Both the position numbers and the translations under genes were made by a program. From a virus, in the IMG/VR virus record IMGVR_UViG_3300009488_000007, positions 1 through 43,805 of that record: a stretch of DNA of 43,805 nucleotides; one strand, 5' to 3'. Under the pieces are notes generated by a model. The model did no database searches. It had not been told where the DNA came from and saw only the letters and a list, made by a program, of their open reading frames with translations. This document shows positions 1,700 through 43,174 of this stretch, in pieces. Every line of letters starts with the position of its first letter. Position 1 is the stretch's first letter.

Positions 1700-2455
1700 T
1701 TAACCTCCTTTGTTAGTAAATACCAAATTACTCCTGTCTATCTCCACCCTTACTGGCTTTATCTCATCCTCAGCCAATCGGAGTAAAGGAAAACTTATAT
1801 CAACTATGTTACCTCCCTCCACTTTAGTCCTCAATTCTATAGAGGAGTCACACCACCAACCAAAAACAGCAGAACCAAAGGCAGCATCGGCTCCTCTATC
1901 ATAGCGTTCTCCTTCTATTACCCAATCCTTACCCTCATGGTGTATGAGGACAAAGCTGACCCTATGTTTCTCTATGGTTTCATCTATCCTGTCAGTGAAT
2001 TGCCTCACATCATACTCATCGGTGAGGCGACCAGACATTACCTTAAATATTGGGTCAATAACCACTACTTGGGCATTGGTTTCCATAATCCATTGCTCTA
2101 ATAAGGCTATACCCCAACCCTTATCCAGCTTTAGATTCCTTGTGGTAACAAAGAATAGGTTGTCCAGTGGTGACAGCTTATTACCAAAGCAATATTTATT
2201 TACCCGTTTCTGGTAGGCAGCTTTGGGTATTTCTAGCTGAATTACCAGCACAGTGGATAAGGTTGTTTTGAACCCCAACCAAGGCTCACCACTGGATAAC
2301 TTAAAGGCCAGGTCTATGGATGTCATAGACTTCCAAGACTTGTAGGGTCCGAATATAATTATCTTGCCTTGTGGTATCATTATCCCTGACCCAATCAGCT
2401 CAGTTATGTGTGGTGGCCGCCAGGCTAGGAAGTCACCTAGAGATTCAGGTTTCAT
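1700..2455 (-). CDS. RecA-fold replicative helicase, RepA/AAA_25 type
   Basis: The 251-residue protein has a Walker A-like loop GPYKSWKS (residues 36-43) and a Walker B strand VVVID (130-134). A sensor strand FVLIHHEGK (about 168-176) follows, then RYDRGADAAFGSAVFGWW, resembling the region after the sensor in hexameric helicases of the RSF1010 RepA and phage AAA_25 group. These unwind DNA at the fork by ATP hydrolysis. The final Walker A glycine is replaced by Trp, a variation I associate with this group (KSFK, KSWK). The gene is well away from the polymerase but in the same strand sense. It overlaps the membrane microprotein gene upstream by 4 bases. DnaB-like helicase is the nearest alternative description. 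Confidence 0.8.
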   Translation of the reverse strand: MKPESLGDFLAWRPPHITELIGSGIMIPQGKIIIFGPYKSWKSMTSIDLAFKLSSGEPWLGFKTTLSTVLVIQLEIPKAAYQKRVNKYCFGNKLSPLDNLFFVTTRNLKLDKGWGIALLEQWIMETNAQVVVIDPIFKVMSGRLTDEYDVRQFTDRIDETIEKHRVSFVLIHHEGKDWVIEGERYDRGADAAFGSAVFGWWCDSSIELRTKVEGGNIVDISFPLLRLAEDEIKPVRVEIDRSNLVFTNKGG

Positions 2456-2595
2456 TTAGCTAAAATTGCTCCTGCTATTAAGAGGGCGGCACTACCTACT
2501 ATTTGATGTAAGGGAGGCTCATACCCTGCAAAGGGAATTAAGGAAAACCAGATAAACCCACCAACTAAAAAGCACCAGCCTATTACTTTAATCAT
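2452..2595 (-). CDS. 47-residue membrane microprotein with two hydrophobic segments
   Basis: ATG at 2595-2593 and TGA at 2454-2452, overlapping the helicase start as ATGA. The product starts MIKVIGWCFLVGGFIWFSLI and, after a short polar turn (GYEPPLHQ), has a second hydrophobic run IVGSAALLIAGAILAK. This gives a two-helix hairpin in the inner membrane with short loops, similar in layout to small holins or superinfection membrane proteins. The location upstream of a helicase gives no functional clue. Confidence 0.65.
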   Translation of the reverse strand: MIKVIGWCFLVGGFIWFSLIPFAGYEPPLHQIVGSAALLIAGAILAK

Positions 2596-2795
2596 TCTAT
2601 TACCACTCCTTCCTTACCACCAGTTTCAATGAAGCCTTGCTCCTTACCAAGATAGTCAGTGACCACCAAGCCTGTTCTATTGTTATCCTCTGGACTCCTA
2701 GTTGTATATTCTGGGTCTTGTTCCTCCTGTGAATAAACAAAGAAGTTGTCTGGATAGCTCCTAAGTTGCTGGATTAGAATTTTGATTTCCTTCAT
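2592..2795 (-). CDS. Hypothetical 67-residue protein
   Basis: I start the gene at ATG 2795-2793 because AGGAGGA lies six bases before it; an upstream in-frame ATG at 2852 has no such site. The product begins MKEIKILIQQLRSYPDNF and continues with a polar, acidic, probably disordered tail containing NNRTGLVVTDYLGKEQG. Its end overlaps the next start by 4 bases. Family unknown. Confidence 0.7.
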   Translation of the reverse strand: MKEIKILIQQLRSYPDNFFVYSQEEQDPEYTTRSPEDNNRTGLVVTDYLGKEQGFIETGGKEGVVIE

Positions 2796-2939
2796 TAGAT
2801 TCCTCCTTTTCTGGACATTCATATCCATAATGTTCTCCGTATGTTCTACCACATACTATACAATAGTCAGAATGGTCTGGTGGGTAGCGACCAAATTTTT
2901 ATGCACCTTCAGTCTGTATTCCCCTATAGATTCAGCCAC
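2761..2939 (-). pseudogene. Small zinc-finger gene interrupted by a -1 base frameshift in an A5 run
   Basis: A strong ribosome site (GAGGAGG) precedes GTG at 2939-2937, opening a frame VAESIGEYRLKVHKN. On the coding strand there is a run of five A at 2900-2896. After it, the neighbouring frame reads FGRYPPDHSDYCIVCGRTYG, then HYGYECPEKEES, and ends at TAG 2763-2761, giving a plausible zinc-binding C-terminus. One extra A would fuse both parts into a 59-residue protein. No ATG, GTG or TTG exists in the downstream part before the cysteines. It could be a real inactivating deletion, a sequencing slip in the homopolymer, or ribosomal slippage, though the site is not a canonical -1 heptamer. The last 35 bases overlap the next gene. 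Confidence 0.6.
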
Positions 2940-3246
2940 TTAATTCCTCCTCAATTAGTTTCTCTATGGCTAGACAGAGAGCTAGGGCAGGAGTTTTAGC
3001 ATATGCGCCTACATAATTAACTCCCTCTCTATGGATAACGCAGTGGTGGTTATTATTCCCCCAGTTGTTTAATTGATAGGATAAGAGCTTTGGCTCAAGC
3101 CACTTAAAGCAGGCATCTAGGGATGAAGTAAAGCGCGGTAGCCTAGAAATATCCCTGCCATCAGGTCTATACCACCAATCACTAAATTGTCTGTGCTTAG
3201 CGAACCCTGCCCACAAAGCCAGCTTCTTGTTTAATTCCTCATTCAT
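2932..3246 (-). CDS. Phage ABA-sandwich domain protein
   Basis: The 104-residue sequence has the pattern I know from phage ABA sandwich proteins. A tryptophan-rich N-terminal part (FSDWWYRPDG) is followed by FTSSLDACFKWLEPKL, a beta strand region around HHCVIHREG, and the characteristic end TPALALCLAIEKLIEEEL. The family is widespread in phages and has no established function. A second, more divergent member is encoded at 4880-5233. The start overlaps the ligase gene end. Confidence 0.8.
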   Translation of the reverse strand: MNEELNKKLALWAGFAKHRQFSDWWYRPDGRDISRLPRFTSSLDACFKWLEPKLLSYQLNNWGNNNHHCVIHREGVNYVGAYAKTPALALCLAIEKLIEEELSG

Positions 3247-4117
3247 TTAACACCTCCTTTATGCAATCTATAGGTGATTTGTCGTCCCTAAGTCTGACAA
3301 ACCTGGGAAATACTATGCCTCCCTTATTACCGAGTTCTTGCCCTTTGACTTCTATTACTCTACCGATATAAGTTCCAGGAGTAGATGCAAATAAGGCTCT
3401 TTCCAGGTCTGTCATCCCAGAGCACTTGCCTACCTCTTGTAACAGTCCGTTGCAGTTATAGAAGCCATAACGAATGGCTCCAATGACGCCTTCATATTTA
3501 CCTTTTCCTTGTGTGAACCCCATAATAACTACATCCCATGTTTTAACTCTTTTTACTTTGAACCAATCCTTCTCAAAGCCAGATAGTTTCTTAACCACAA
3601 CACCCTCGCCTCCACGACTGATAATGCTATCAAAGACTTCCCGCTTACCCCTCCTATATAGGGGTTCTGCTGCTATCCTTTGCATACCACAAAGGGTAAG
3701 CAGGTGGATGGCTTCATGCAAAGGTACTAATCTTTCCCCAAATGGGACGTGTAGTAGGGACTCGCCTTTCCACCTAGTAATGTTTACCGCTGTGAATAAG
3801 GCTTTTCCGTTCCTATTTTGCCAATCCAAGGAGTGGACAAGTCCAGAACCAAATATAGACTTAGCGTCCTCCACTCTTCCACTTGGGGCATAGCCCTCAC
3901 CAGGTAGAATTAAATCCATGCTTTTAGGAATAACTATCCCAGTTATATGAGGAACATTATCTGTTTGTTCACTACCAGAACGATTAAAGAGGCGAACGGT
4001 TCCATCCCTAACAACTAACAACTCACTGAATCCGTTATATTTTTGTCCCACTACTAGGTCGGGAGTATCCTCTATATCATCTAAGATGGAAATGGGCATA
4101 GTTTTCATGCTACTCAT
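3239..4117 (-). CDS. ATP-dependent DNA ligase
   Basis: The 292-residue protein carries the ordered motifs of the nucleotidyltransferase superfamily: motif I KYNG (about residue 27), RLFNRSG, a glutamate strand LILPGEG, ALFTAVNI, motif IV GGEGVVVKK (about 168-176) and motif V WFKVKRVKTWDVVI, followed by an OB-fold C-terminal domain. Lys of motif I would take AMP and pass it to a 5' phosphate so that nicks are sealed, as needed after lagging-strand synthesis and recombination. Motif I is KxNG rather than the usual KxDG. Length is in the range of small phage ligases. It overlaps both neighbours by a few bases. Confidence 0.85.
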   Translation of the reverse strand: MSSMKTMPISILDDIEDTPDLVVGQKYNGFSELLVVRDGTVRLFNRSGSEQTDNVPHITGIVIPKSMDLILPGEGYAPSGRVEDAKSIFGSGLVHSLDWQNRNGKALFTAVNITRWKGESLLHVPFGERLVPLHEAIHLLTLCGMQRIAAEPLYRRGKREVFDSIISRGGEGVVVKKLSGFEKDWFKVKRVKTWDVVIMGFTQGKGKYEGVIGAIRYGFYNCNGLLQEVGKCSGMTDLERALFASTPGTYIGRVIEVKGQELGNKGGIVFPRFVRLRDDKSPIDCIKEVLNE

Positions 4118-4530
4118 TCACTCAATACCTCCTTTTGTTTAGTAGGAACCAACTCATATAACTCCAAGTTTATCAATACATAGCATATTCCCTGCTGACA
4201 GGCTAATCCACACTGCTTGCATCCTTCACAGCTAGGCAAATTATCAGCACCATACCTTAGCTTAAACCTCTTAATCCACCTACTCAAAGTGCTGGTATCC
4301 ACCTCATCACCTAGTTTCTTGGCTACCACTGACAGGGAGCCACTAACCAATACATCCTCAATCCTATGCCCATACTTCTGCTCCAGGTAACGCATCAGGG
4401 CTGTTTTGGGAATGTCTGGAATACTCACCTTTACTACTGGCTGCAACCGTTTATGCTTTCCAGGTGCTGGTTGCCTCTCCAGTAGTCCTCGTTCCTTGAG
4501 TATCTTATCTCTTGGTGATAATATTTTCAT
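4114..4530 (-). CDS. HTH protein with a C-terminal cysteine cluster
   Basis: The 138-residue product has a central helix-turn-helix-like segment (SLSVVAKKLGDEVDTSTLSRWIKRFKL, quoted here only in outline, about residues 64-90) resembling transposase or homeodomain-like DNA-binding helices. Near residues 100-116 there is a dense cluster CEGCKQCGLACQQGIC with five cysteines at spacing 2, 2, 3 and 4. The cluster could bind zinc or an iron-sulfur centre, so the protein could be a metal- or redox-responsive regulator. The family is not known to me. It is coupled to the ligase gene by a 4-base overlap. Confidence 0.75.
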   Translation of the reverse strand: MKILSPRDKILKERGLLERQPAPGKHKRLQPVVKVSIPDIPKTALMRYLEQKYGHRIEDVLVSGSLSVVAKKLGDEVDTSTLSRWIKRFKLRYGADNLPSCEGCKQCGLACQQGICYVLINLELYELVPTKQKEVLSE

Positions 4531-9494: not shown

Positions 9495-9523
9495 ATTATA
9501 CATCCTTCTATTGCAGTTGTCAA
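9495..9523 (-). promoter_or_regulatory. Perfect sigma70-type promoter for the long minus operon
   Basis: On the minus strand TTGACA (9523-9518) and TATAAT (9500-9495) are exact consensus hexamers separated by 17 bases. Transcription would begin near 9488 and run through 9420 to 1 and on to 43175. A dyad AGAACAAATGTGCT (9525-9538) lies directly against the -35 box, and two CTTnACATAA motifs follow at 9540 and 9555. Confidence 0.85.
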
Positions 9524-9524
9524 T

Positions 9525-9538
9525 AGAACAAATGTGCT
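9525..9538. promoter_or_regulatory. Dyad operator-like site, copy 1 (AGCACAwATGTTCT family)
   Basis: AGAACAAATGTGCT is the reverse complement of AGCACATTTGTTCT. It has two six-base arms around a two-base centre. It sits immediately upstream of the -35 box of the minus promoter at 9495-9523. Three more copies are at 9575, 10308 and 10334. Confidence 0.6.
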
Positions 9539-9539
9539 A

Positions 9540-9564: not shown

Positions 9565-9574
9565 CATCCTTATT

Positions 9575-9588
9575 AGCTCAAATGTTCT
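9575..9588. promoter_or_regulatory. Dyad operator-like site, copy 2
   Basis: AGCTCAAATGTTCT matches the dyad family with one change in the left arm. It lies 41 bp upstream of the -35 box of the plus promoter at 9629-9657, between the two divergent promoters. Confidence 0.55.
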
Positions 9589-9628
9589 ACTCCTGCCAAC
9601 GAGTTTTCACAAATTGCCTATAAAACAC

Positions 9629-9657
9629 TTGACAAAGTGCTATCCGTGTGTTATAAT
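9629..9657 (+). promoter_or_regulatory. Perfect sigma70-type promoter for the isolated plus-strand gene
   Basis: TTGACA (9629-9634) and TATAAT (9652-9657) are exact consensus at 17-bp spacing, with TGTG just before the -10 box, close to an extended -10. Transcription would begin near 9664, directly at the foot of a hairpin, and serves the gene at 9709-10245. Confidence 0.9.
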
Positions 9658-9708: not shown

Positions 9709-10245
9709 ATGAGTATTGAGGAACTTAGGGCACAAATGCGAGCAGCTATTGACAAAAATGACGTTGATGCGATGGACTCAATAGCAATCCAGATTGTGGC
9801 TAGCAAAAAAGAACGAGCTAAAGTTGAAGCTGATAGACTGCTCAAGGAGTCTGAAGCATTAGCGGATGTTCGGGAGAAGCTAGCCGCTAAGACACACCAA
9901 ATGCTTAAAGGAATTCCAGGGCTTGACAAGGAGCTAGTAGCAGTCAAAGCGTGGGGCTTTACTTACAAGGTTGACAAAGCTAACCCAAATGAGCCAGACA
10001 TTGTCTATAAGTCGGTTAGCTTGACAACTGCTGCAGTGAAAGCTCCCAAAGCTGGAGGTGGTGGTAGCACTGGAAAGAGTAAGGATGAGTTCGGATTGAG
10101 CCTAGGGGAGATTTTTGACAAGTTTGCTACGGACGAGGACAAAACAAAACTAGCTGCTGCTACATCAGGATCCAGTCAGTGGCAGGTCAAAGTAGCTGTC
10201 AAGAAACGAGCTATCGCTAGTGGGCTGCTAGCACCAGTAAAGTAG
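9709..10245 (+). CDS. Isolated, strongly expressed protein of unknown function (178 residues)
   Basis: This lone plus-strand gene lies between two minus-strand operons and has its own consensus promoter, 5' hairpin, AGGAGG site and hairpin terminator. The N-terminal half is a charged coiled coil (MSIEELRAQMRAAIDKNDVD to about residue 65). The middle contains VKAWGFTYKVDKANPNEPD, then a glycine-rich linker GGGGSTGKSK (about 117-126). The C-terminal domain is SLGEIFDKFATDEDK followed by a basic stretch QVKVAVKKRAIASGLLAPVK. Coiled coil, flexible linker and basic end suggest an oligomeric nucleic-acid-binding protein such as a nucleoid-like protein, ssDNA-binding accessory or regulator. The surrounding dyads would be natural targets. 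I do not know the family well enough to name it. Confidence 0.85.
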   Translation: MSIEELRAQMRAAIDKNDVDAMDSIAIQIVASKKERAKVEADRLLKESEALADVREKLAAKTHQMLKGIPGLDKELVAVKAWGFTYKVDKANPNEPDIVYKSVSLTTAAVKAPKAGGGGSTGKSKDEFGLSLGEIFDKFATDEDKTKLAAATSGSSQWQVKVAVKKRAIASGLLAPVK

Positions 10246-10432: not shown

Positions 10433-10633
10433 TTATGGTAGGTCTGAGAAATTACTCCAGTTCAATTTTGTCATTACCTCAACCTTACCACTCCTTTGTA
10501 TGGTGTCAATTTGGATACCCATAGGAGTGATGTAGCGTATTAGGTCGTAGTAAGGTTCATAGAAGATTTCCATCCAGCCATTGTCCGAAATGAATTTAAT
10601 AAATATCCTCTTACTAATTTCCCTGTTAGGCAT
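10433..10633 (-). CDS. Hypothetical 66-residue protein
   Basis: Last gene of the short minus operon. The product MPNREISKRIFIKFISDNGW is rich in aromatic residues (MEIFYEPYYDLIRYITPMG) and predicted beta strands, with no cysteine. GGAGGA precedes the start. It converges with the 9709 transcription unit. Function unknown. Confidence 0.75.
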   Translation of the reverse strand: MPNREISKRIFIKFISDNGWMEIFYEPYYDLIRYITPMGIQIDTIQRSGKVEVMTKLNWSNFSDLP

Positions 10634-10855
10634 TTAATCCTCCTCTCCAATCATAGTAAATATTTTACCCATATCATAGTGATTGGGAAAGCTCCTAACA
10701 TCCTTACACCACTTGCAATACCACAGCCCTGTGTGGAATTCTCCATTCTCACTATGTTGTATTTCTATCCAATGATGGGCACCAGTGGGTGAGGCTGGAC
10801 ATTTCCATACATCAGAGGCTAAGTATTCCTTATATGTTAGAGTCTTTCCGCCCAT
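10634..10855 (-). CDS. Zinc-ribbon-like protein (73 residues)
   Basis: The sequence has WKCPASPTGAHHWIEIQ near residues 17-33 and LWYCKWCKDVRSF near 44-56, so one Cys, two His and a CxxC pair could hold zinc. GGAGGAGGACAG precedes the ATG at 10855. The product is otherwise beta-rich. Role unknown. Confidence 0.8.
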   Translation of the reverse strand: MGGKTLTYKEYLASDVWKCPASPTGAHHWIEIQHSENGEFHTGLWYCKWCKDVRSFPNHYDMGKIFTMIGEED

Positions 10856-10886
10856 CTGTCCTCCTCCTTGTCATCTGTTAACCACT

Positions 10887-11057
10887 TTAATTTAGACCAA
10901 TCCTGGCTTGGGCATTTAGTTCCTTTTGGTAAGAGTTATAGAGCATTTCTGTGTCCACCTTAAAACCGCCTCCTATCTCTATACTAGAGCCATATTCCAC
11001 TCTTTTTATTTTTCTAAATATAGCCCAAAGTTGCCCCAATGTTATCATATCTTCCAC
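10887..11057 (-). CDS. Hypothetical 56-residue protein with GTG start
   Basis: GTG at 11057-11055 lies six bases after AGGAGGG; TAA at 10889-10887. The product is MEDMITLGQLWAIFRKIKRV, then EYGSSIEIGGGFKVDTEM and a polar helical end. Nothing else explains this gap, and the ribosome site is strong. Family unknown. Confidence 0.65.
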   Translation of the reverse strand: MEDMITLGQLWAIFRKIKRVEYGSSIEIGGGFKVDTEMLYNSYQKELNAQARIGLN

Positions 11058-11093
11058 AGTTCCCTCCTTTAACTCTTGACAGTAACTTTTTGA

Positions 11094-11525
11094 TTATAGC
11101 CTTTCCGCCCATGATTTGGGCACTCCTCCCAAAGTAGCTACCTCCAGCATAATATCAATCATTTGTTGGGTTAGTCTAGCCTCAGCTAATAGATTATCTG
11201 GATAGCTACCACCTTTCCTCATCTGTTCAGCCTTATGGAACCGCCTAACCAGCAAGTAGCGTTTCCTCCTATCCTCCTCACATAGAGTTGGCTTTTTCTC
11301 CCTACGCTGTGGGACATATGGATTACGTCTAAGGTAGTCTAGTCCTTGTTCTATCCAACATTGAGGATGATAGCTGTAGGAAACATTCCACCCTCTACTA
11401 TCTGGATTGCCTTTATTCCAGAAAAATACAGTAACTACAGGAGTGCTATTATCTATGGACTGGTCGCACCACTTACAGGTGGACTTCTTAACACACCATT
11501 TCATGGTTACATTGGGAATAGTCAT
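11094..11525 (-). CDS. PARP-type-like zinc finger phage protein (143 residues)
   Basis: The first 60 residues contain WCVKKSTCKWCDQSI, a beta region VVTVFFWNKG and YSYHPQCWIEQG, the Cx2C...HxxC order of small zinc fingers that end in a short Trp helix. The C-terminal half is basic and helical (RRKRYLLVRRFHKAEQMRKG) and ends with TLGGVPKSWAERL. The arrangement suggests nucleic-acid contact. It is coupled to the upstream gene by a 4-base overlap. Confidence 0.75.
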   Translation of the reverse strand: MTIPNVTMKWCVKKSTCKWCDQSIDNSTPVVTVFFWNKGNPDSRGWNVSYSYHPQCWIEQGLDYLRRNPYVPQRREKKPTLCEEDRRKRYLLVRRFHKAEQMRKGGSYPDNLLAEARLTQQMIDIMLEVATLGGVPKSWAERL

Positions 11526-11686
11526 TCTTGGTCATCAACCTCCTGGAACAATTCTATCATTCTAATCATACTCCTCAGCATCATTTGTTCTGCTGGACTA
11601 AGGCTATTGTCCACCAGAGCCCTTTCTAGTTCTTCCTTTACGAGTATCTCCTCAGTTTGCAATTCAAATAATGGTTGAGTAGTCAT
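11522..11686 (-). CDS. Hypothetical 54-residue acidic helical protein
   Basis: ATG at 11686-11684 and TGA at 11524-11522, overlapping both neighbours by 4 bases. The product MTTQPLFELQTEEILVKEEL continues as helices ending EQMMLRSMIRMIELFQEVDD. Probably a small helical dimer. No family recognised. Confidence 0.7.
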   Translation of the reverse strand: MTTQPLFELQTEEILVKEELERALVDNSLSPAEQMMLRSMIRMIELFQEVDDQE

Positions 11687-11916
11687 ACCTTTAGCAACTC
11701 CCTTTCCTCAACATGCTTTTTCCTAATCAATTCCCAATCCTCTCCCTTAACCACATACAGAGGAAATATCACTCCACACCTACATTCAAACAAATTCTTA
11801 TTGTAGGCAGGATAATGCACAGGACAATGAATTTCTATGGAGAGTTTAGCTCCTAGATAATCTATTTCCTGAGTGTACCCCTGCTGTATATATGCTCCCC
11901 AAACTGCCACAATCAC
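11683..11916 (-). CDS. Small CHCC-type zinc protein (77 residues)
   Basis: A GTG start at 11916 follows AGAGG at a short distance. The sequence is beta-rich at first (MIVAVWGAYIQQGYTQEIDY), then IHCPVHYPAYNKNLFECRCG provides Cys-x2-His and Cys-x-Cys ligands, and the end is a charged helix with WELIRKKHVEERELL. Likely a single zinc site. Function unknown. Confidence 0.75.
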   Translation of the reverse strand: MIVAVWGAYIQQGYTQEIDYLGAKLSIEIHCPVHYPAYNKNLFECRCGVIFPLYVVKGEDWELIRKKHVEERELLKV

Positions 11917-11928
11917 CTCTTTGAAGTG

Positions 11929-12015
11929 TTAAGCTACCTTGCAGGTTCTGTTGGGATATTGGTTAGCCCGAACTATACCCACCACTTCTACCATCAGTAG
12001 TGCTACCCATCCCAA
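11929..12015 (-). CDS. Possible 28-residue hydrophobic peptide (tentative)
   Basis: The gap 11917-12060 is longer than usual here. One frame starting at TTG 12015-12013 reads LGWVALLMVEVVGIVRANQY then PNRTCKVA, like one membrane span or a short signal peptide. The ribosome site is poor (AGAAG eight bases away). A second tiny frame, MAEISTCKEWRNPRSKNLWD (12003-12068), overlaps the stop of the upstream gene by 8 bases. Neither is certain. Confidence 0.25.
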   Translation of the reverse strand: MGWVALLMVEVVGIVRANQYPNRTCKVA

Positions 12016-12060
12016 AGATTTTTACTTCTGGGGTTTCTCCACTCCTTACATGTGGAGATT

Positions 12061-12246
12061 TCAGCCATTTCTTATAGCATTTTTACAACCAAATATGTCA
12101 GAGTAATTATTCCTACCGTGAGACCAAAGTCTATGATAATCAGGATTTTTATCACCACACCACTGGCACTTAAAGAACTCAGGTGTTTGCCCTATCGCCC
12201 TAAATCTCGTTTTTTCACTTTCAGTCATTTTGGTCATATAAGCCAT
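12061..12246 (-). CDS. Zinc-binding microprotein, first gene of the short minus operon
   Basis: The 61-residue product has FKCQWCGDKNPDYHRLWSHG (about residues 25-44), a Cx2C...H...H arrangement, plus a later Cys. The N-terminus is charged (MAYMTKMTESEKTRFRAIGQ). AAGGAGGGA precedes ATG 12246, about 40 bases after the expected transcription start from the promoter at 12295-12323. Confidence 0.75.
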   Translation of the reverse strand: MAYMTKMTESEKTRFRAIGQTPEFFKCQWCGDKNPDYHRLWSHGRNNYSDIFGCKNAIRNG

Positions 12247-12294: not shown

Positions 12295-12323
12295 ATTATA
12301 ACACCTAGGCAGCTATTTGTCAA
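12295..12323 (-). promoter_or_regulatory. Perfect sigma70-type promoter for the 12246-10433 operon
   Basis: On the minus strand TTGACA (12323-12318) and TATAAT (12300-12295) are exact consensus with a 17-base spacer. The bases around the boxes (TTGACAAATAG and GTGTTATAAT) match those of the 43118 promoter, showing common ancestry or selection. Confidence 0.85.
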
Positions 12324-12379: not shown

Positions 12380-12408
12380 TTGACAGTTATGTAAAGTTGT
12401 GATATAAT
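12380..12408 (+). promoter_or_regulatory. Perfect sigma70-type promoter for the virion module, with internal operator motif
   Basis: TTGACA (12380-12385) and TATAAT (12403-12408), spacer 17. TTATGTAAAG, the reverse complement of CTTTACATAA, occupies 12387-12396 inside the spacer, an ideal position for repression. The first bases after the -10 box are AGGAGT and then the ATG of the small terminase gene, so the mRNA would start at or next to the start codon. Confidence 0.88.
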
Positions 12409-12414
12409 AGGAGT

Positions 12415-12930
12415 ATGAACACTGATATTGAAACCTCAGAAGGTGTAATAACTCCTACTGAAGGAGCAGCCCAATCTCTAATCAACTATTATGCGGATGG
12501 TGGCAAGAAAGCCCGTTACCTGAGTTACCTGGTAGCGAGTTTTTCTGTAATGGAGGCAGTAAAGCTAGCCAAAGTCCATCTGAAATCGGTTAAGCGTTGG
12601 AGAGAAGAACCAGCTTTTATGGAGTTGGAACAGAAAGCCCTAGGCGAGCTAAGGGAGCAGTTATCCAACCAGCTTATCAATATTGAGTTTACCCGCAACT
12701 TTAGGTTAGTATTGGCTAAGGACTTCCAAATCCTGTTCAAGGATGCTCAGGACAAAGTATTAACTGAGAAGGAGCAGCAGTACCTGTTGGTGATAAGGAA
12801 ATTCTATACTCCTCAGCAGTTGATTATGATTAGGCAGATAATTAGTGGAAAAGACCTATCTGGTGACGCGTTCAATTTCACCAACATAGCTATAAAGATT
12901 AGCTTGGAAAAGGGAGAACAAAGTGGATAG
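12415..12930 (+). CDS. Probable small terminase subunit
   Basis: The 171-residue protein contains a helix-turn-helix-like stretch around residues 40-62 (YLVASFSVMEAVKLAKVHLK then SVKRWREEPAF), the common plan of phage small terminases: an N-terminal DNA-binding domain followed by helical oligomerisation segments (EQKALGELREQLSNQL; EKEQQYLLVIRKFY). Position at the head of the packaging and virion module supports the call. It would recognise viral DNA and load the large subunit encoded at 16778. The ATG lies only seven bases after TATAAT, so translation is either leaderless or depends on RNA starting farther upstream, in which case AGGAG can act. A transcription regulator with the same fold is the alternative. 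Confidence 0.65.
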   Translation: MNTDIETSEGVITPTEGAAQSLINYYADGGKKARYLSYLVASFSVMEAVKLAKVHLKSVKRWREEPAFMELEQKALGELREQLSNQLINIEFTRNFRLVLAKDFQILFKDAQDKVLTEKEQQYLLVIRKFYTPQQLIMIRQIISGKDLSGDAFNFTNIAIKISLEKGEQSG

Positions 12931-13805: not shown

Positions 13806-15074
13806 ATGCCTAAAGAACCCAAACCGACAAACGATACTACCTTTGAGGTAACACTTGCTGGTGGTGATAAGGTTGAGATAGGGGATAGGGACTCCGTTGA
13901 CTTCAAGCCTCATATCAAGCTCAATCGCTGGGATGGTGAATGTTTTATCAAAGTTCAACCAGCAGGAGAGATAGAGGAAATTGAGTATGAGGTAGAAGAA
14001 AATAAGATTAAGTGCAAATACAAGGTAAAACAGGACGAGTTTGAGTTTGAATGGGAAACTGAGTTCTACCCTCTTGAACCTACCATAGTAACCGCCAAAG
14101 ATAAAGACGGTAAAGAGCATAAGTTCAAGCAGAATGAGCTTGGCGGCTTTGAGTTTGAGCAAATCCTAAAGAAAAAACCTAAGACAAACAAGATTGTCCT
14201 TGATATCGAGACGCAGGGACTTAAATTTCACCATCAGCCTCCGTTACACCCAGACCATCCAACTTGGCTTATAGATGAACTGGGTGGAGTTAGTATTCGT
14301 CCTGAGAATGTCGTTGGGGGTTATGCTGTTGACCACGCTACCAGAATACCCTTCCACAAGAACAAGGAAGATGCTGAAAAATATAAGGCGTGCATAGCCT
14401 TCTTTATTTATTATCCCTACCTTACAGATGTTAACGGATGGCGGGTTCGGGCGGAAGGTTTCATACTTGATGTGGAAGCAAAGACCTTAACAACTGTAAT
14501 GCCCCAGGATTTTCTTGACAAAGCTGTTTATCCAGTAAGCACAGGAACCACTAATTTTGGTTTTGAAGAAAAGGGTGGAACTTCCTACAATATAATAGGC
14601 TACATTATGGGGTCTAAGTTTTTAGCTGCTGCTGGCACACCGATTTCTGTAACAGCGTATCTTCAGAATACGGAGAGTGAAGACCCGCAAGAAGTGGAGT
14701 ATGGAGTATACTTGGATTCTGATGCTTCCCGTGTTGCCTACACAGGCAATCCAGGGGCAAATACTGTTCCTGGGGGCCACGATGCTAACTTTCTCATAAA
14801 TTTAGGAACTGTAGATAAAGATTTAACTGCTGCTGACCATTACCTTGTTTGGTGGGCAGGTGCTCAATACCCTAAGTTCTGGTTTAATGAAGTGGCAGGT
14901 CTCTCGGCTTACGATGCCGAGGCCTTTACAGATGGTACATGGCCTAATCCTTGGACTCAGACAGTATGGGGTGATAGGAAATTCACCATTTTCTGCACCT
15001 ATGAGGAAGAAGCAGCAGTAGGTATTCCAGTTCAAGCCTTTATGCATATGCAGAGAATGAGGAGGCAAGGATAG
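13806..15074 (+). CDS. Virion appendage/fibre-like protein (422 residues)
   Basis: AAGGAG precedes ATG 13806. The N-terminal half is highly charged beta sequence (EIEEIEYEVEENKIKCKYKV, FEFEWETEFYPLEP). The middle has KIVLDIETQGLKFHHQPPL and RPENVVGGYAVDHA, a signature I associate with structural proteins of related uncultured phages. The C-terminal part (GYIMGSKFLAAAGTPISVTA and later WWAGAQYPKFWFNEVAGLSA) looks like a carbohydrate-binding jelly-roll. The neighbour at 15074 is also fibre-like, so the two probably form one receptor-binding structure. Confidence 0.6.
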   Translation: MPKEPKPTNDTTFEVTLAGGDKVEIGDRDSVDFKPHIKLNRWDGECFIKVQPAGEIEEIEYEVEENKIKCKYKVKQDEFEFEWETEFYPLEPTIVTAKDKDGKEHKFKQNELGGFEFEQILKKKPKTNKIVLDIETQGLKFHHQPPLHPDHPTWLIDELGGVSIRPENVVGGYAVDHATRIPFHKNKEDAEKYKACIAFFIYYPYLTDVNGWRVRAEGFILDVEAKTLTTVMPQDFLDKAVYPVSTGTTNFGFEEKGGTSYNIIGYIMGSKFLAAAGTPISVTAYLQNTESEDPQEVEYGVYLDSDASRVAYTGNPGANTVPGGHDANFLINLGTVDKDLTAADHYLVWWAGAQYPKFWFNEVAGLSAYDAEAFTDGTWPNPWTQTVWGDRKFTIFCTYEEEAAVGIPVQAFMHMQRMRRQG

Positions 15075-16537
15075 TGCAAGAGTTAGAAGTGAATGTAGCA
15101 GCGACTATTTTAATCGGGCCTGCGGTAGCAGTAGCGGATGGGGTTACACCTGTTGAAAATCTTGCACTAGGTACTGCTGACCATGCGGAGCTAATGAAAC
15201 ATAATGGAACTACCTTTGTTGACTTAACCAGTGATAGCCGAGCCTTTACTCACAAGGAAGGCGGATGGTACACCTTGGTTCTTGGCACAGGCGATATAGA
15301 CACAGAGGGGCGTTTAACTGTACTTATTATGGACACTAGCCTTAGTTTGCCCATCTGGAAGGACTTTATGGTTGTCTCTCAAGCATATTGGGCAAGTAAA
15401 TATGATGCTAAGGACTCAGGTTATATGGATGTTGACATTAAGGCAGTTGGTGGGACAGCTACTCCTCATACCAGTGGTAAGCTCCATGTCCTTAATGGGG
15501 ATGGTGCTGCTATTACCGCAGCAGGCCCAACAAAGACTCAAATGGATAATGGACATGGACTTCTAGCCACATTAGCCATACAACACGATGCAGACTACGG
15601 TGATAGGATTTACTTTGACGAGGACACTGGCGTTGCTGGCACAACTCATCCTATAGGTACGGCACACGACCCCAGTGATGTTATCGCTGATATTATATCT
15701 ATGTGTACTACCCGAAATATCCGCAAGATACATGTTCATGGAGCATTAACCCTTGCTGCCCAAATGGAGCACTATGCCTTCTTTGGGGAGAGGCATGAAG
15801 AGCTAGGTGATTTCGTAGACCTCGGTGGGCAAGATGTAGATGGCTCTTATTTTACGGGACTTTTGATAAAAGGAGCACAGGCGGGAGCAGGCTTCATCAA
15901 TATAGAGGACTGTATAGTATATACCCTGACCAACTTTACTGGTATGATAACAAACAGTGCATTTTACAGTTCCACATGCAGTCTTGAGGATACTGGATAT
16001 TCTGATATAGATAGTTGTTACTCAATATATGGTGCTGTAACCCTAACAGTCCAAGCACCGACAAGGGCAAGCATAAAGGATTGGAAGGGAAACCTTATCC
16101 TGACAGCACAAGATGGCGGTGTAATGTTCCTGAGAGACTTTGTGGGAACCCTTGAGATTGATGCGATGACTTCTGGGACACTTTCGGTTTACGCTAATGG
16201 TGCTGATATTACCATAAATGCTGACTGCACTGGTGGGACAATTAACCTTTATGGACATGGTAATCTCACTGGAGCTGGTGGTGGAGTTACCATAAACAAC
16301 TACCTGATTGATACTAAGATAGATACAGCACAGGGAACGCTAACCAAACTAGAGGATACACTTGAAGATGATGCTGGGACTTATAGGTTTACTGAAAATG
16401 CTTTAGAGGAAGCACCTTCTGGTGCAGAAGCTATAGTGGCTGCGGTTTGGGATGAGCCAATAGCCGACCATGATACTGAAGGTTCTACTGGAGAAGCCTT
16501 AGCTGCCGCCACTGAAATTACCCTAGAGGAGGATTAA
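15074..16537 (+). CDS. Tail fibre/appendage protein with beta-helical centre (487 residues)
   Basis: GTG at 15074 overlaps the previous TAG by one base. The N-terminal 110 residues (GGWYTLVLGTGDIDTEGRLT, LPIWKDFMVVSQAYW) are the conserved attachment-type domain of fibre proteins in this group. The centre, about 180-420, has the short repetitive Gly/Asn/Thr strands of a beta helix (GTINLYGHGNLTGAGGGVTI). The end has IVAAVWDEPIADHDTEGSTG, a motif common near the C-terminus of such proteins. Role inferred: host recognition. Confidence 0.65.
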   Translation: MQELEVNVAATILIGPAVAVADGVTPVENLALGTADHAELMKHNGTTFVDLTSDSRAFTHKEGGWYTLVLGTGDIDTEGRLTVLIMDTSLSLPIWKDFMVVSQAYWASKYDAKDSGYMDVDIKAVGGTATPHTSGKLHVLNGDGAAITAAGPTKTQMDNGHGLLATLAIQHDADYGDRIYFDEDTGVAGTTHPIGTAHDPSDVIADIISMCTTRNIRKIHVHGALTLAAQMEHYAFFGERHEELGDFVDLGGQDVDGSYFTGLLIKGAQAGAGFINIEDCIVYTLTNFTGMITNSAFYSSTCSLEDTGYSDIDSCYSIYGAVTLTVQAPTRASIKDWKGNLILTAQDGGVMFLRDFVGTLEIDAMTSGTLSVYANGADITINADCTGGTINLYGHGNLTGAGGGVTINNYLIDTKIDTAQGTLTKLEDTLEDDAGTYRFTENALEEAPSGAEAIVAAVWDEPIADHDTEGSTGEALAAATEITLEED

Positions 16538-26523: not shown

Positions 26524-26553
26524 TTGACAGCATTATGTTAAATGTGTTATAAT
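26524..26553 (+). promoter_or_regulatory. Sigma70-type promoter for scaffold and capsid genes
   Basis: TTGACA (26524-26529) and TATAAT (26548-26553) are exact, spacer 18. The 13 bases TATAATAGGAGTA here are identical to those at 12403-12415. After the expected start near 26560 a seven-codon frame GTG...TGA (26561-26581) ends one base before the scaffold ATG, a possible leader cistron. An internal promoter here would boost capsid and scaffold above the giant protein. Confidence 0.85.
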
Positions 26554-26582: not shown

Positions 26583-27188
26583 ATGGCTGAGAACTTTGCC
26601 TTTAACCAGGATGGTTCTGTTGACTTAGAGGTAGAAGGTGCAAAAGTCCGCTATGTCAAGGAATCAGATTTGTTAGCGGTAAAAGGTGGCTCTGAGACAA
26701 AGGAGAAGGAGTGGGAAAACGAGAAAGCCTCATTCAATACCCAACTAGCTGAGGCTAATCGGCTCAGGGATGAGACCAATCAATCTCTTTTGCAGGAGCG
26801 GGCTGCTAAAGAGCAGTTGACAACCCAGTATGCCGACCATGACACTATTAAAAGGAGAGTGGGTGAGCTAGAGACAGAAAATGGCACCCTTAAAGAGGGT
26901 GTTGGCAAGTTTGAGGAAGAGCTTGCTGGACGGATACGCCATGCCCTTATTATGCAACATGGTGCATCCGAGGATGGTGTAAAGGAAAAAACTTTACCTC
27001 AGCTCAGGAATCTTGAGGAAGCTGCCAGATTATTTGGTAATGGTAAAGGCAAGCAAGGAATACCAGCCAGATATGATGGTGGTGGAGGAGGCCCTGCTGG
27101 TGGAAGTGTTCCTGAATCTTCGTTGGATAGAGCCAACAGGATACTTGAGGAACATGATGCCAAGAGGGGCAGAGCAAGAGTAACATAA
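26583..27188 (+). CDS. Probable scaffolding protein
   Basis: GAAGGAGGTCTTGAA precedes ATG 26583. The 201-residue protein is acidic, with a long coiled coil (about 40-115: KEKEWENEKASFNTQLAEAN and onward), a Gly-rich linker (YDGGGGGPAGGS, near 167) and a short C-terminal helix rich in Glu and Arg (RANRILEEHDAKRGRARV). This pattern and the position directly before the capsid gene fit phage scaffolds, whose C-terminal helix binds the capsid protein during prohead assembly. No protease domain is present, so it must leave the head in another way. Confidence 0.75.
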   Translation: MAENFAFNQDGSVDLEVEGAKVRYVKESDLLAVKGGSETKEKEWENEKASFNTQLAEANRLRDETNQSLLQERAAKEQLTTQYADHDTIKRRVGELETENGTLKEGVGKFEEELAGRIRHALIMQHGASEDGVKEKTLPQLRNLEEAARLFGNGKGKQGIPARYDGGGGGPAGGSVPESSLDRANRILEEHDAKRGRARVT

Positions 27189-27201: not shown

Positions 27202-28287
27202 ATGGCGAGTTCAGGTGGACATTGGAAAACCCTGACTGAAGCCCAAAAGCTAACCCAAAGCCATAAGATACCAGGTGTCTTTGAAGAGGATGTCAAGCGT
27301 AACAACCCTATAGACAGGATGCCAGTAGCTCAGGCCGCAGGCACAGGACTCAAAATAGAGTGGTTACAGGAAAATACAACCACTGAGTCTGCTGTGGTTG
27401 AGGCTGTTGTTGGTCAGCAATTGGTTTGGGGTGAGGATGTAGAATATACCGAGAGGGAATCAATCCTCAGGTATATTTATATCCAGAGGAAGTTAGACCG
27501 CTACATCCAGAACATCTATGGTACCTACAACGATTACCGAGCACAGGTGCTCTTGGAGTCTGAGAAGGGATTAAAGCGGAGGATTGGTGACCGTATCATC
27601 TATGCGGATACTACCTATGGTGGAACTCCAACTCAGATGGACGGTCTCCATGCCCTAGCAGCCGAAAGGGGTGCTCCATGGGCTAGTGCTGCTAGTGGAA
27701 CCAACAGTAAGCTAAATATTGACCAGGCTACTGGGCCCTTGAGTTTGTTACTCCTCAGAACCCAAATTGATGCCATGAAGTTTGGCGTTGATGAGATAAT
27801 GGTTCCATCCCAAATAGGAATACGGTTAGACGCTGCCTATGGTGAGTATGGCTTCCGAACTGCTGGAACCAACTACGTTCATGGTGACATTAGCCTCCTA
27901 ACCAGAGGTCTGAACCAGATTGGTATGCCAATCCTATTCTTCATGGGTATACCCATTGTTAGGTCAGATTTCATGGTTAGAGAGGAAGATGGTACTGGCA
28001 CAGGTGCTACTACCTGCACCACCAAGAGACAGGCGTATTCCTCAGAGGAAGCCTTCTCCATCTTCTGTCTAAAGTATGGGGATGTTTTGGCTAGGGAACC
28101 TGGAGTCTGTTTTGCCTATGGTGGAACTGAAGGCGAGGGTGACCTTTACGAGCTTTGGACTTGGGACAGGCTAGAGGACTACAATGCTGGTGGTATGCGG
28201 ATGGATAGCTATGGAACCGTGCTACTAGGTTCTACGCTGTGCTTAGGTCGCATATTTGATATCCAGGATGCAAACATAGTAGCGTAA
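27202..28287 (+). CDS. Major capsid protein, HK97 fold
   Basis: AAGGAGGAAAG precedes ATG 27202. The 361-residue protein has the expected order of an extended N-terminal arm (residues 1-60), E-loop-like strands (VVGQQLVWGEDVEYTERESI), the long spine helix region (DYRAQVLLESEKGLKRRIGD), a P-domain and an A-domain containing PILFFMGIPIVRSD, a typical late strand in HK97-type capsids. It forms the shell, hundreds of copies, with the scaffold upstream and the probable decoration protein downstream. Confidence 0.8.
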   Translation: MASSGGHWKTLTEAQKLTQSHKIPGVFEEDVKRNNPIDRMPVAQAAGTGLKIEWLQENTTTESAVVEAVVGQQLVWGEDVEYTERESILRYIYIQRKLDRYIQNIYGTYNDYRAQVLLESEKGLKRRIGDRIIYADTTYGGTPTQMDGLHALAAERGAPWASAASGTNSKLNIDQATGPLSLLLLRTQIDAMKFGVDEIMVPSQIGIRLDAAYGEYGFRTAGTNYVHGDISLLTRGLNQIGMPILFFMGIPIVRSDFMVREEDGTGTGATTCTTKRQAYSSEEAFSIFCLKYGDVLAREPGVCFAYGGTEGEGDLYELWTWDRLEDYNAGGMRMDSYGTVLLGSTLCLGRIFDIQDANIVA

Positions 28288-42950: not shown

Positions 42951-43082
42951 TTATTTATCCTCCAATTTACTTATTATTAGCTCCTTAATCAGCTGTTTTG
43001 CTGTCTTTCCTTCCCTAATGGCAGCAATCTTTAGCTCCACTGCCTGCTCTTTGGTTAGGTCAACAGTTATATTGTAGCTCAC
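42951..43082 (-). CDS. Ribbon-helix-helix DNA-binding protein, candidate repressor (43 residues)
   Basis: GTG at 43082-43080 follows AGGAGG; TAA at 42953-42951. The product MSYNITVDLTKEQAVELKIA then AIREGKTAKQLIKELIISKL shows the ribbon-helix-helix plan of Arc, CopG and MetJ: one amphipathic strand (YNITVDL), helix A (KEQAVELKIAAIREG), a turn with KT, and helix B (AKQLIKELIISKLE). Such proteins bind DNA as dimers through the strand. It is the first gene after the promoter at 43118, which carries two copies of the CTTnACATAA motif upstream, so autoregulation is likely. It was too short to be caught as an obvious gene. Confidence 0.8.
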   Translation of the reverse strand: MSYNITVDLTKEQAVELKIAAIREGKTAKQLIKELIISKLEDK

Positions 43083-43117
43083 CTCATGTTTACCTCCTAA
43101 TCTATAACTCTATTAAA

Positions 43118-43146
43118 ATTATAACACAGTGGACACTATTTGTCAA
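43118..43146 (-). promoter_or_regulatory. Perfect sigma70-type promoter for the replication operon
   Basis: On the minus strand TTGACA (43146-43141) and TATAAT (43123-43118) are exact with a 17-base spacer. The start would be near 43111. GTGTTATAAT and TTGACAAATAG are shared with the 12295 promoter. It drives the RHH gene and everything down to the polymerase at 35412. Confidence 0.88.
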
Positions 43147-43151
43147 GTTAG

Positions 43152-43174
43152 TTATGTCAAGTCGTTATGTAAAG
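43152..43174 (-). promoter_or_regulatory. Tandem CTTnACATAA motifs upstream of the replication promoter
   Basis: On the minus strand CTTTACATAA (43174-43165) and CTTGACATAA (43161-43152) are direct repeats 13 bp apart, followed by CTTGACAAAT that contains the -35 box. Three phased repeats form a likely cooperative site, next to the gene for the RHH protein. Confidence 0.6.

Follow-up and report, generated by a model that had tools for sequence, protein, structure and literature searches.

The 43,805-base window (the whole stretch of viral DNA that was analyzed) carries, at the head of its replication operon, a short GTG-initiated gene whose 43-residue product has the ribbon-helix-helix (RHH) plan, and tandem copies of the motif CTTnACATAA stand above the predicted promoter of that operon (Table 1). 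A preliminary description of this DNA had pointed out the gene, the tandem sites and the recurrence of the motif near all six strong promoters, and proposed that the RHH protein acts through the motif as a one-protein, genome-wide switch. The features themselves were described correctly: profile, model and PDB matches agree on the RHH plan, the sites at 43152 and 43165 are 13 bp apart, and every motif coordinate was right, including that of the 26533 copy with its one change. Promoters were predicted from consensus only; the perfect TTGACA/TATAAT promoters of the window number six (9523-, 9629+, 12323-, 12380+, 26524+, and 43146-), and all six have a site within about 90 bp.

Table 1. Coordinates of the genes, predicted promoters and operator sites discussed in the text (window numbering)
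Feature	Position	Strand	Remarks
138-aa HTH and Cys-rich protein	4114-4530	-	Most conserved candidate DNA-binding protein of the family
Predicted early leftward promoter	9495-9523	-	Sites 26 and 41 bp upstream of -35
Operator site CTTAACATAA	9540-9549	+	Between divergent promoters
Operator site CTTTACATAA	9555-9564	+	Between divergent promoters
Predicted rightward promoter of 178-aa gene (9709-10245)	9629-9657	+	
Predicted leftward promoter of block 10433-12246	12295-12323	-	
Operator site CTTAACATAA	12334-12343	+	
Predicted late promoter of putative small terminase subunit (12415-12930)	12380-12408	+	
Operator site CTTTACATAA	12387-12396	-	In -35/-10 spacer of terminase promoter
Operator site CTTGACATAA	26513-26522	+	Adjoins -35 of 26524 promoter
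Predicted late promoter of gene 26583-27188 and head gene 27202-28287	26524-26553	+	
Operator site TTTAACATAA, one change	26533-26542	-	In spacer of 26524 promoter
43-aa RHH protein gene	42951-43082	-	GTG start; first gene of replication operon
Predicted promoter of RHH/replication operon	43118-43146	-	TTGACA-17-TATAAT
Operator site CTTGACATAA	43152-43161	-	13 bp from 43165 site, just upstream of -35
Operator site CTTTACATAA	43165-43174	-	Upstream of RHH promoter

About 25 related IMG/VR contigs were collected by scans with the 253-aa gene, the DNA polymerase and the helix-turn-helix (HTH) protein, and several of them are near 41 to 47 kb. IMG/VR classes the 16 contigs used as the family set as linear, possibly fragments. 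No relative was found in GTDB genomes scanned with the HTH and terminase profiles or among named phages searched with the RHH protein. In the relatives, the early operon (the 4114 gene and the AAA gene at 1700; window 1700-4530) lies directly upstream of the RHH operon, so that the ends of the window represent an arbitrary cut through one early region; judging by this gene order, the genome map is circularly permuted or circular. Two genes at 13806-16537, which encode 422 and 487 aa and are flanked by the putative terminase subunits, had no tblastn match in the 13 first-found relatives, with only weak family hits, and the ATP-dependent DNA ligase of the window (3239-4117, minus strand) likewise had no match in these 13.

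The motif is strongly overrepresented and concentrated at promoters. CTTNACATAA occurs as 7 exact copies in the window against 0.55 expected, a number reached by none of 100 shuffled sequences. The excess vanishes once one mismatch is tolerated (16 copies versus 16.5 expected), which makes the site unusually rigid, and single-mismatch copies are few even at the promoters of the pooled related contigs. In 17 pooled contigs, TTNACATAA was found 151 times versus 28.7 expected and ranked first among 36,596 gapped patterns of its form. Of the 148 exact copies in 16 related contigs, 84 fall within the 1.9% of sequence around strong promoters, equivalent to 7.15 per kb there versus 0.105 per kb elsewhere (68-fold). 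Comparison of the promoter regions of relatives thus bears out a single conserved operator type. The CTTnACATAA-type element is almost certainly an operator, and that one operator is common to the promoters of this phage family is well supported.

The extended consensus of the site, ctRSTTDACATAAYRt, is asymmetric rather than palindromic. The sites, of about 13 bp, are many and dispersed, and they occur in both orientations relative to transcription, even within one promoter. Same-strand spacings cluster at 13 to 16, 23 to 28, 34 to 37, and 45 to 47 bp, corresponding to a helical phase of 10 to 11 bp (about 10.5) with R of 0.75, or 0.71 to 0.74 for spacings of at least 19 bp; the compared genomes share ancestry and are not independent, so that the P values given in this analysis are optimistic.

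The position of the site relative to the promoter differs between early and late genes. At terminase promoters of the family the site lies over the -35 hexamer (offset 0) or in the spacer (+7, +9), and promoters of the 26583 gene combine a spacer site (+8, +9) with another copy at -10 to -12. Sites at RHH promoters are always upstream of -35 (-10 to -59), as are those at the early leftward promoter wherever sites are present (-15 to -78), with the exception of downstream copies at +33 in G009 and +42 in G004. Among tabulated sites, with the +33 and +42 copies left out, 13 of 21 at late promoters but 0 of 52 at early promoters fall in the promoter core. A repressor acting in the same way everywhere is thus too simple a description. 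We infer the sign of the effect from this placement, which suggests that late promoters are repressed via the site and that it has another role at early promoters.

Further elements were observed around the same promoters. An inverted repeat, TAGAACA-N2-TGTTCTA (GAAC-N4-GTTC), is located just upstream of the early -35 hexamer and in the arrays at 9709 (window 9524-9539 and 9574-9589; also G012 25921, G009 4555, G020 24661, and others), and its exact GAAC-N4-GTTC form occurs 23 times versus 9.1 expected in 16 contigs; it resembles the LexA/DinR SOS box of Gram-positive bacteria. In nearly all relatives, including those that lack XerD-like sites, the early leftward promoter has a conserved spacer (TTGACA-n2-4-GCAAyA-...-TATAAT), which may be a further operator. 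Late promoters (e.g., window 12323, 12380, and 26524) are repeatedly preceded by an AT-rich element, TAATACTAT(ATTA), which is also present in G011, G022, and G023, where the main motif is lacking at this place.

The RHH fold of the 43-aa protein is supported by several comparisons. A single-sequence search gave weak matches, the best of them RHH-like (PHROG Arc-like repressor, E = 0.0049; Pfam ParD, E = 0.008), and a profile of 17 relatives matched solved structures, first the CopG family protein 9kkd (E = 3.9e-7) and then ParD, EndoAI, ParG, PutA, and omega. The AlphaFold2 monomer model (pLDDT 87) has an extended N terminus followed by two helices, and its best PDB matches are the RHH domains of PutA (TM 0.80), ParG, ParD, Arc, and VapB. 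The strand-then-two-helices plan of the Arc/MetJ fold is therefore present in both profile and model. At the start of the gene, a two-codon ATG-AGG-TGA frame (43082-43087, minus strand) overlaps the GTG codon, and the same ATGAGGTGA is found in G004; this is possibly translational coupling. In G002 (L047, 4802-5260) the RHH position is occupied by a 152-aa protein that has the RHH domain at its end and a front that appears nuclease-like by eye.

RHH proteins form symmetric dimers that insert a strand pair into the DNA major groove, and a dimer of the 43-aa protein binding CTTnACATAA as an autoregulated repressor throughout the genome would unite gene and sites, as in Arc, CopG, and omega, which share its fold and likewise have short tandem sites above their promoters. 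In nearly all relatives the gene likewise heads the replication operon and is followed by the 253-aa gene; as in the window, its own promoter usually has one to four sites, and the fragment G025 lacks both gene and sites. Nevertheless, the three DNA-facing strand positions vary radically over 17 proteins (entropy 1.8 to 2.8 bits; residue sets N/T/D, Y/I/N, H/A/R, H/Y/P, and A/T/R; last position R in 9, P in 4, D in 2, N in 1, and G in 1), whereas the site is constant. No site stands at the promoter of the RHH gene in G009, G021, G022, and G024, and the nearly identical RHH proteins of G007 and G009 stand behind two sites and none, respectively. In addition, the site is asymmetric, whereas RHH dimers usually take sites with two-fold symmetry. 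The varying contact residues and the RHH promoters lacking sites make the RHH protein an unlikely universal reader of CTTnACATAA; of the switch originally proposed, the single operator at early, replication, and late promoters stands, and the RHH protein as its reader is not supported. The protein probably regulates its own replication operon.

Other proteins of the phage were considered as the reader. The phyletic profile revealed no core gene of the window that tracks the presence of sites, and the 178-aa gene (9709-10245) was rejected because its product has two different C termini among phages that share the site. The most likely phage-encoded reader other than the RHH protein is the 138-aa HTH and Cys-rich protein, which would act like the repressor of mycobacteriophage L5. 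It is found in every relative covering the region (48 to 84%), its predicted recognition helix is nearly invariant, it has an HTH_23 hit (E = 0.012), and it gave a three-helix model of moderate confidence, although this model has no structural match in the PDB. The protein is, however, equally conserved in G021 and in the near-complete relative G023, which lack sites, and it is missing from the unrelated phages with such arrays (see below). The dispersed stoperators of L5 and TipsytheTRex (PMC9283540) are similar in that many copies of one short asymmetric site are found at promoters. They differ in that L5 has its own two-domain HTH repressor, for which the proteins scanned here gave no hit beyond the weak HTH in 4114-4530; in that the sites of this family occur on both strands relative to transcription rather than being aligned with it; and in that the 16 family contigs contain no integrase (tyrosine or serine recombinase; PF00589, PF00239). 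Reading by the HTH protein or another phage protein therefore appears rather improbable.

The same arrangement of sites is found outside the family. Triple tandem copies occur in 44 stretches of IMG/VR versus 26 for a scrambled pattern, and the spacers are nonidentical in 33 of the 44 versus 11 of the 26 control stretches, most control hits being simple repeats. In 11 unrelated carriers (contigs with at most one family-gene hit; GC content of 0.29 to 0.56), the stretches read contain 153 sites, 15 of them in open reading frames versus 96 expected, and the contrast with the control lies in copy number and intergenic placement. A reversed-pattern control over whole unrelated contigs was near zero in most but not in G027 and G036, which are AT-rich and large and are therefore weak as carriers. 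The base at the free position is carrier specific (mostly TTAACATAA in G030, TTTACATAA in G033, and TTGACATAA in G035). Dense intergenic 9-mer arrays of 8 to 32 copies were seen in the unrelated contigs L107, L116, L132, L135, L103, and L105. For some of the unrelated arrays a promoter association is not evident, and placement of the site in a promoter spacer shows no excess beyond the family (81 versus 77 for a scrambled control). No named phage record similar to two of the carriers was found. Scanning the unrelated carriers yielded nothing with the family HTH profile and no significant homologue with the RHH profile (one marginal partial hit); the motif is thus kept without a significant family-type RHH homologue, further evidence against the RHH protein, whose role as general reader we judge unlikely. 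The occurrence of the same arrays in unrelated phages argues for a reader that belongs to the host or is widely shared.

A candidate for such a reader is suggested by the sequence of the site. Its reverse complement, AYRTTATGTHAASY, corresponds to the XerD arm of dif together with three bases of its central region. Compared with published dif seeds (PMC3025954), the extended site matches that of Escherichia coli (GGTGCGCATAATGTATATTATGTTAAAT) at 13 of 14 positions and those of Bacillus subtilis (ACTTCCTAGAATATATATTATGTAAACT) and Frankia alni (CACGCCGATAATGCACATTATGTCAAGT) at 14 of 14. A random AT-rich 28-mer reaches 13 matches with P = 8.5e-4, a value to be read with the facts that the match was noticed after the motif had been seen and that known motifs are many; since the three seeds are homologous, the match counts as one observation. 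Positions 23 and 24 of dif vary, and position 24 contacts XerD (PMC2731167); the free position of the phage core (A, C, or T) corresponds to position 24. When 49 kb of the E. coli terminus region (about 98,000 windows) were scored with a matrix built from phage sites only, dif came out in second place.

The likeness to dif thus includes the TTATGTHAA core, the same free position 24, similar central bases (ACA/ATA), and the outer bases. The phage sites differ in comprising only the XerD half, in tandem at 13- to 16-bp spacing and at promoters. An XerC arm 6 bp from the XerD arm was found at 1 of 146 sites versus 0.9 expected, and the absence of XerC arms indicates that these are putative binding sites and not recombination sites. 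A scan for alphaproteobacterial XerD-arm arrays (TTCCATAA) returned only coding repeats, and arrays of XerD half-sites in phages were not described in the open-access literature searched.

XerD as the reader would account for the rigidity and asymmetry of the site, for its presence in unrelated phages, and for a spacing approximating one XerD footprint. From sequence comparison we consider reading by host XerD the best single hypothesis, with about an even chance of being correct; that host XerD reads the half-sites as operators, possibly titrated by phage replication, is just short of evenly balanced. Each copy would be a single dif-type XerD half-site, to which the host recombinase would bind in the manner of a transcription factor. 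RNA polymerase would be blocked where the protein occupies the -35 hexamer or the spacer of late promoters (terminase and the 26583 gene), and the two to four helically phased copies that precede the -35 hexamer of early promoters would hold a cooperative array with a tuning or activating effect. Phage replication could multiply the sites until they outnumber the XerD of the cell, and the late promoters would then be freed. In this scheme the RHH protein would act locally on its own replication operon, with a specificity that changes fast. The wider proposal, that unrelated phage lineages carry XerD half-site arrays and that this family uses XerD for late blocking and early decoration with release by titration, is tentative and somewhat less probable than the reading of the sites by XerD itself.

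A partial parallel is provided by the control of pyocins in Pseudomonas aeruginosa, where pyocin expression rises when XerC is lost, in part without a need for its catalytic activity (PMC8609362), and XerC was proposed as a transcriptional regulator at non-dif sites (PMC9431673). In both cases a Xer recombinase would affect expression of a phage or phage-like element in a partly noncatalytic manner, but the pyocin effect involves XerC rather than XerD and proceeds via PrtN, and no binding site was identified there.

Two explanations retain a host protein without XerD acting in transcription. The arrays in unrelated phages would also fit a host transcription factor other than Xer, the resemblance to the XerD arm then being coincidental. 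Such a factor would have kept one core across GC contents of 0.29 to 0.56, although most bacterial regulators change in specificity from phylum to phylum, and the free base and flanks of the site also agree with dif, which makes this explanation decidedly unlikely. Alternatively, the sites may bind XerD for DNA handling (SMC unloading or dimer resolution) rather than for transcription; PMC12322038 describes XerD as a sequence-specific SMC unloader, a role it has at the B. subtilis terminus, and unrelated arrays not evidently associated with promoters fit this function. The offsets are, however, fixed across the family, with sites within the core of late promoters and a short way upstream of early ones, and XerC arms are lacking, so that a role in DNA handling is very improbable.

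If host XerD is the reader, a conserved host DNA-processing enzyme would serve as a timing device for phage gene expression, and late transcription would be tied to DNA copy number and the replication state of the host without a phage-encoded repressor. This would also explain why one fixed operator is found across phages that differ in genes and base composition, and it would provide a simple search pattern for such regulons. Even with another reader, the family-wide operator of these uncultivated phages with its dual placement, in the core of late promoters and upstream of early promoters, represents a testable regulatory code.
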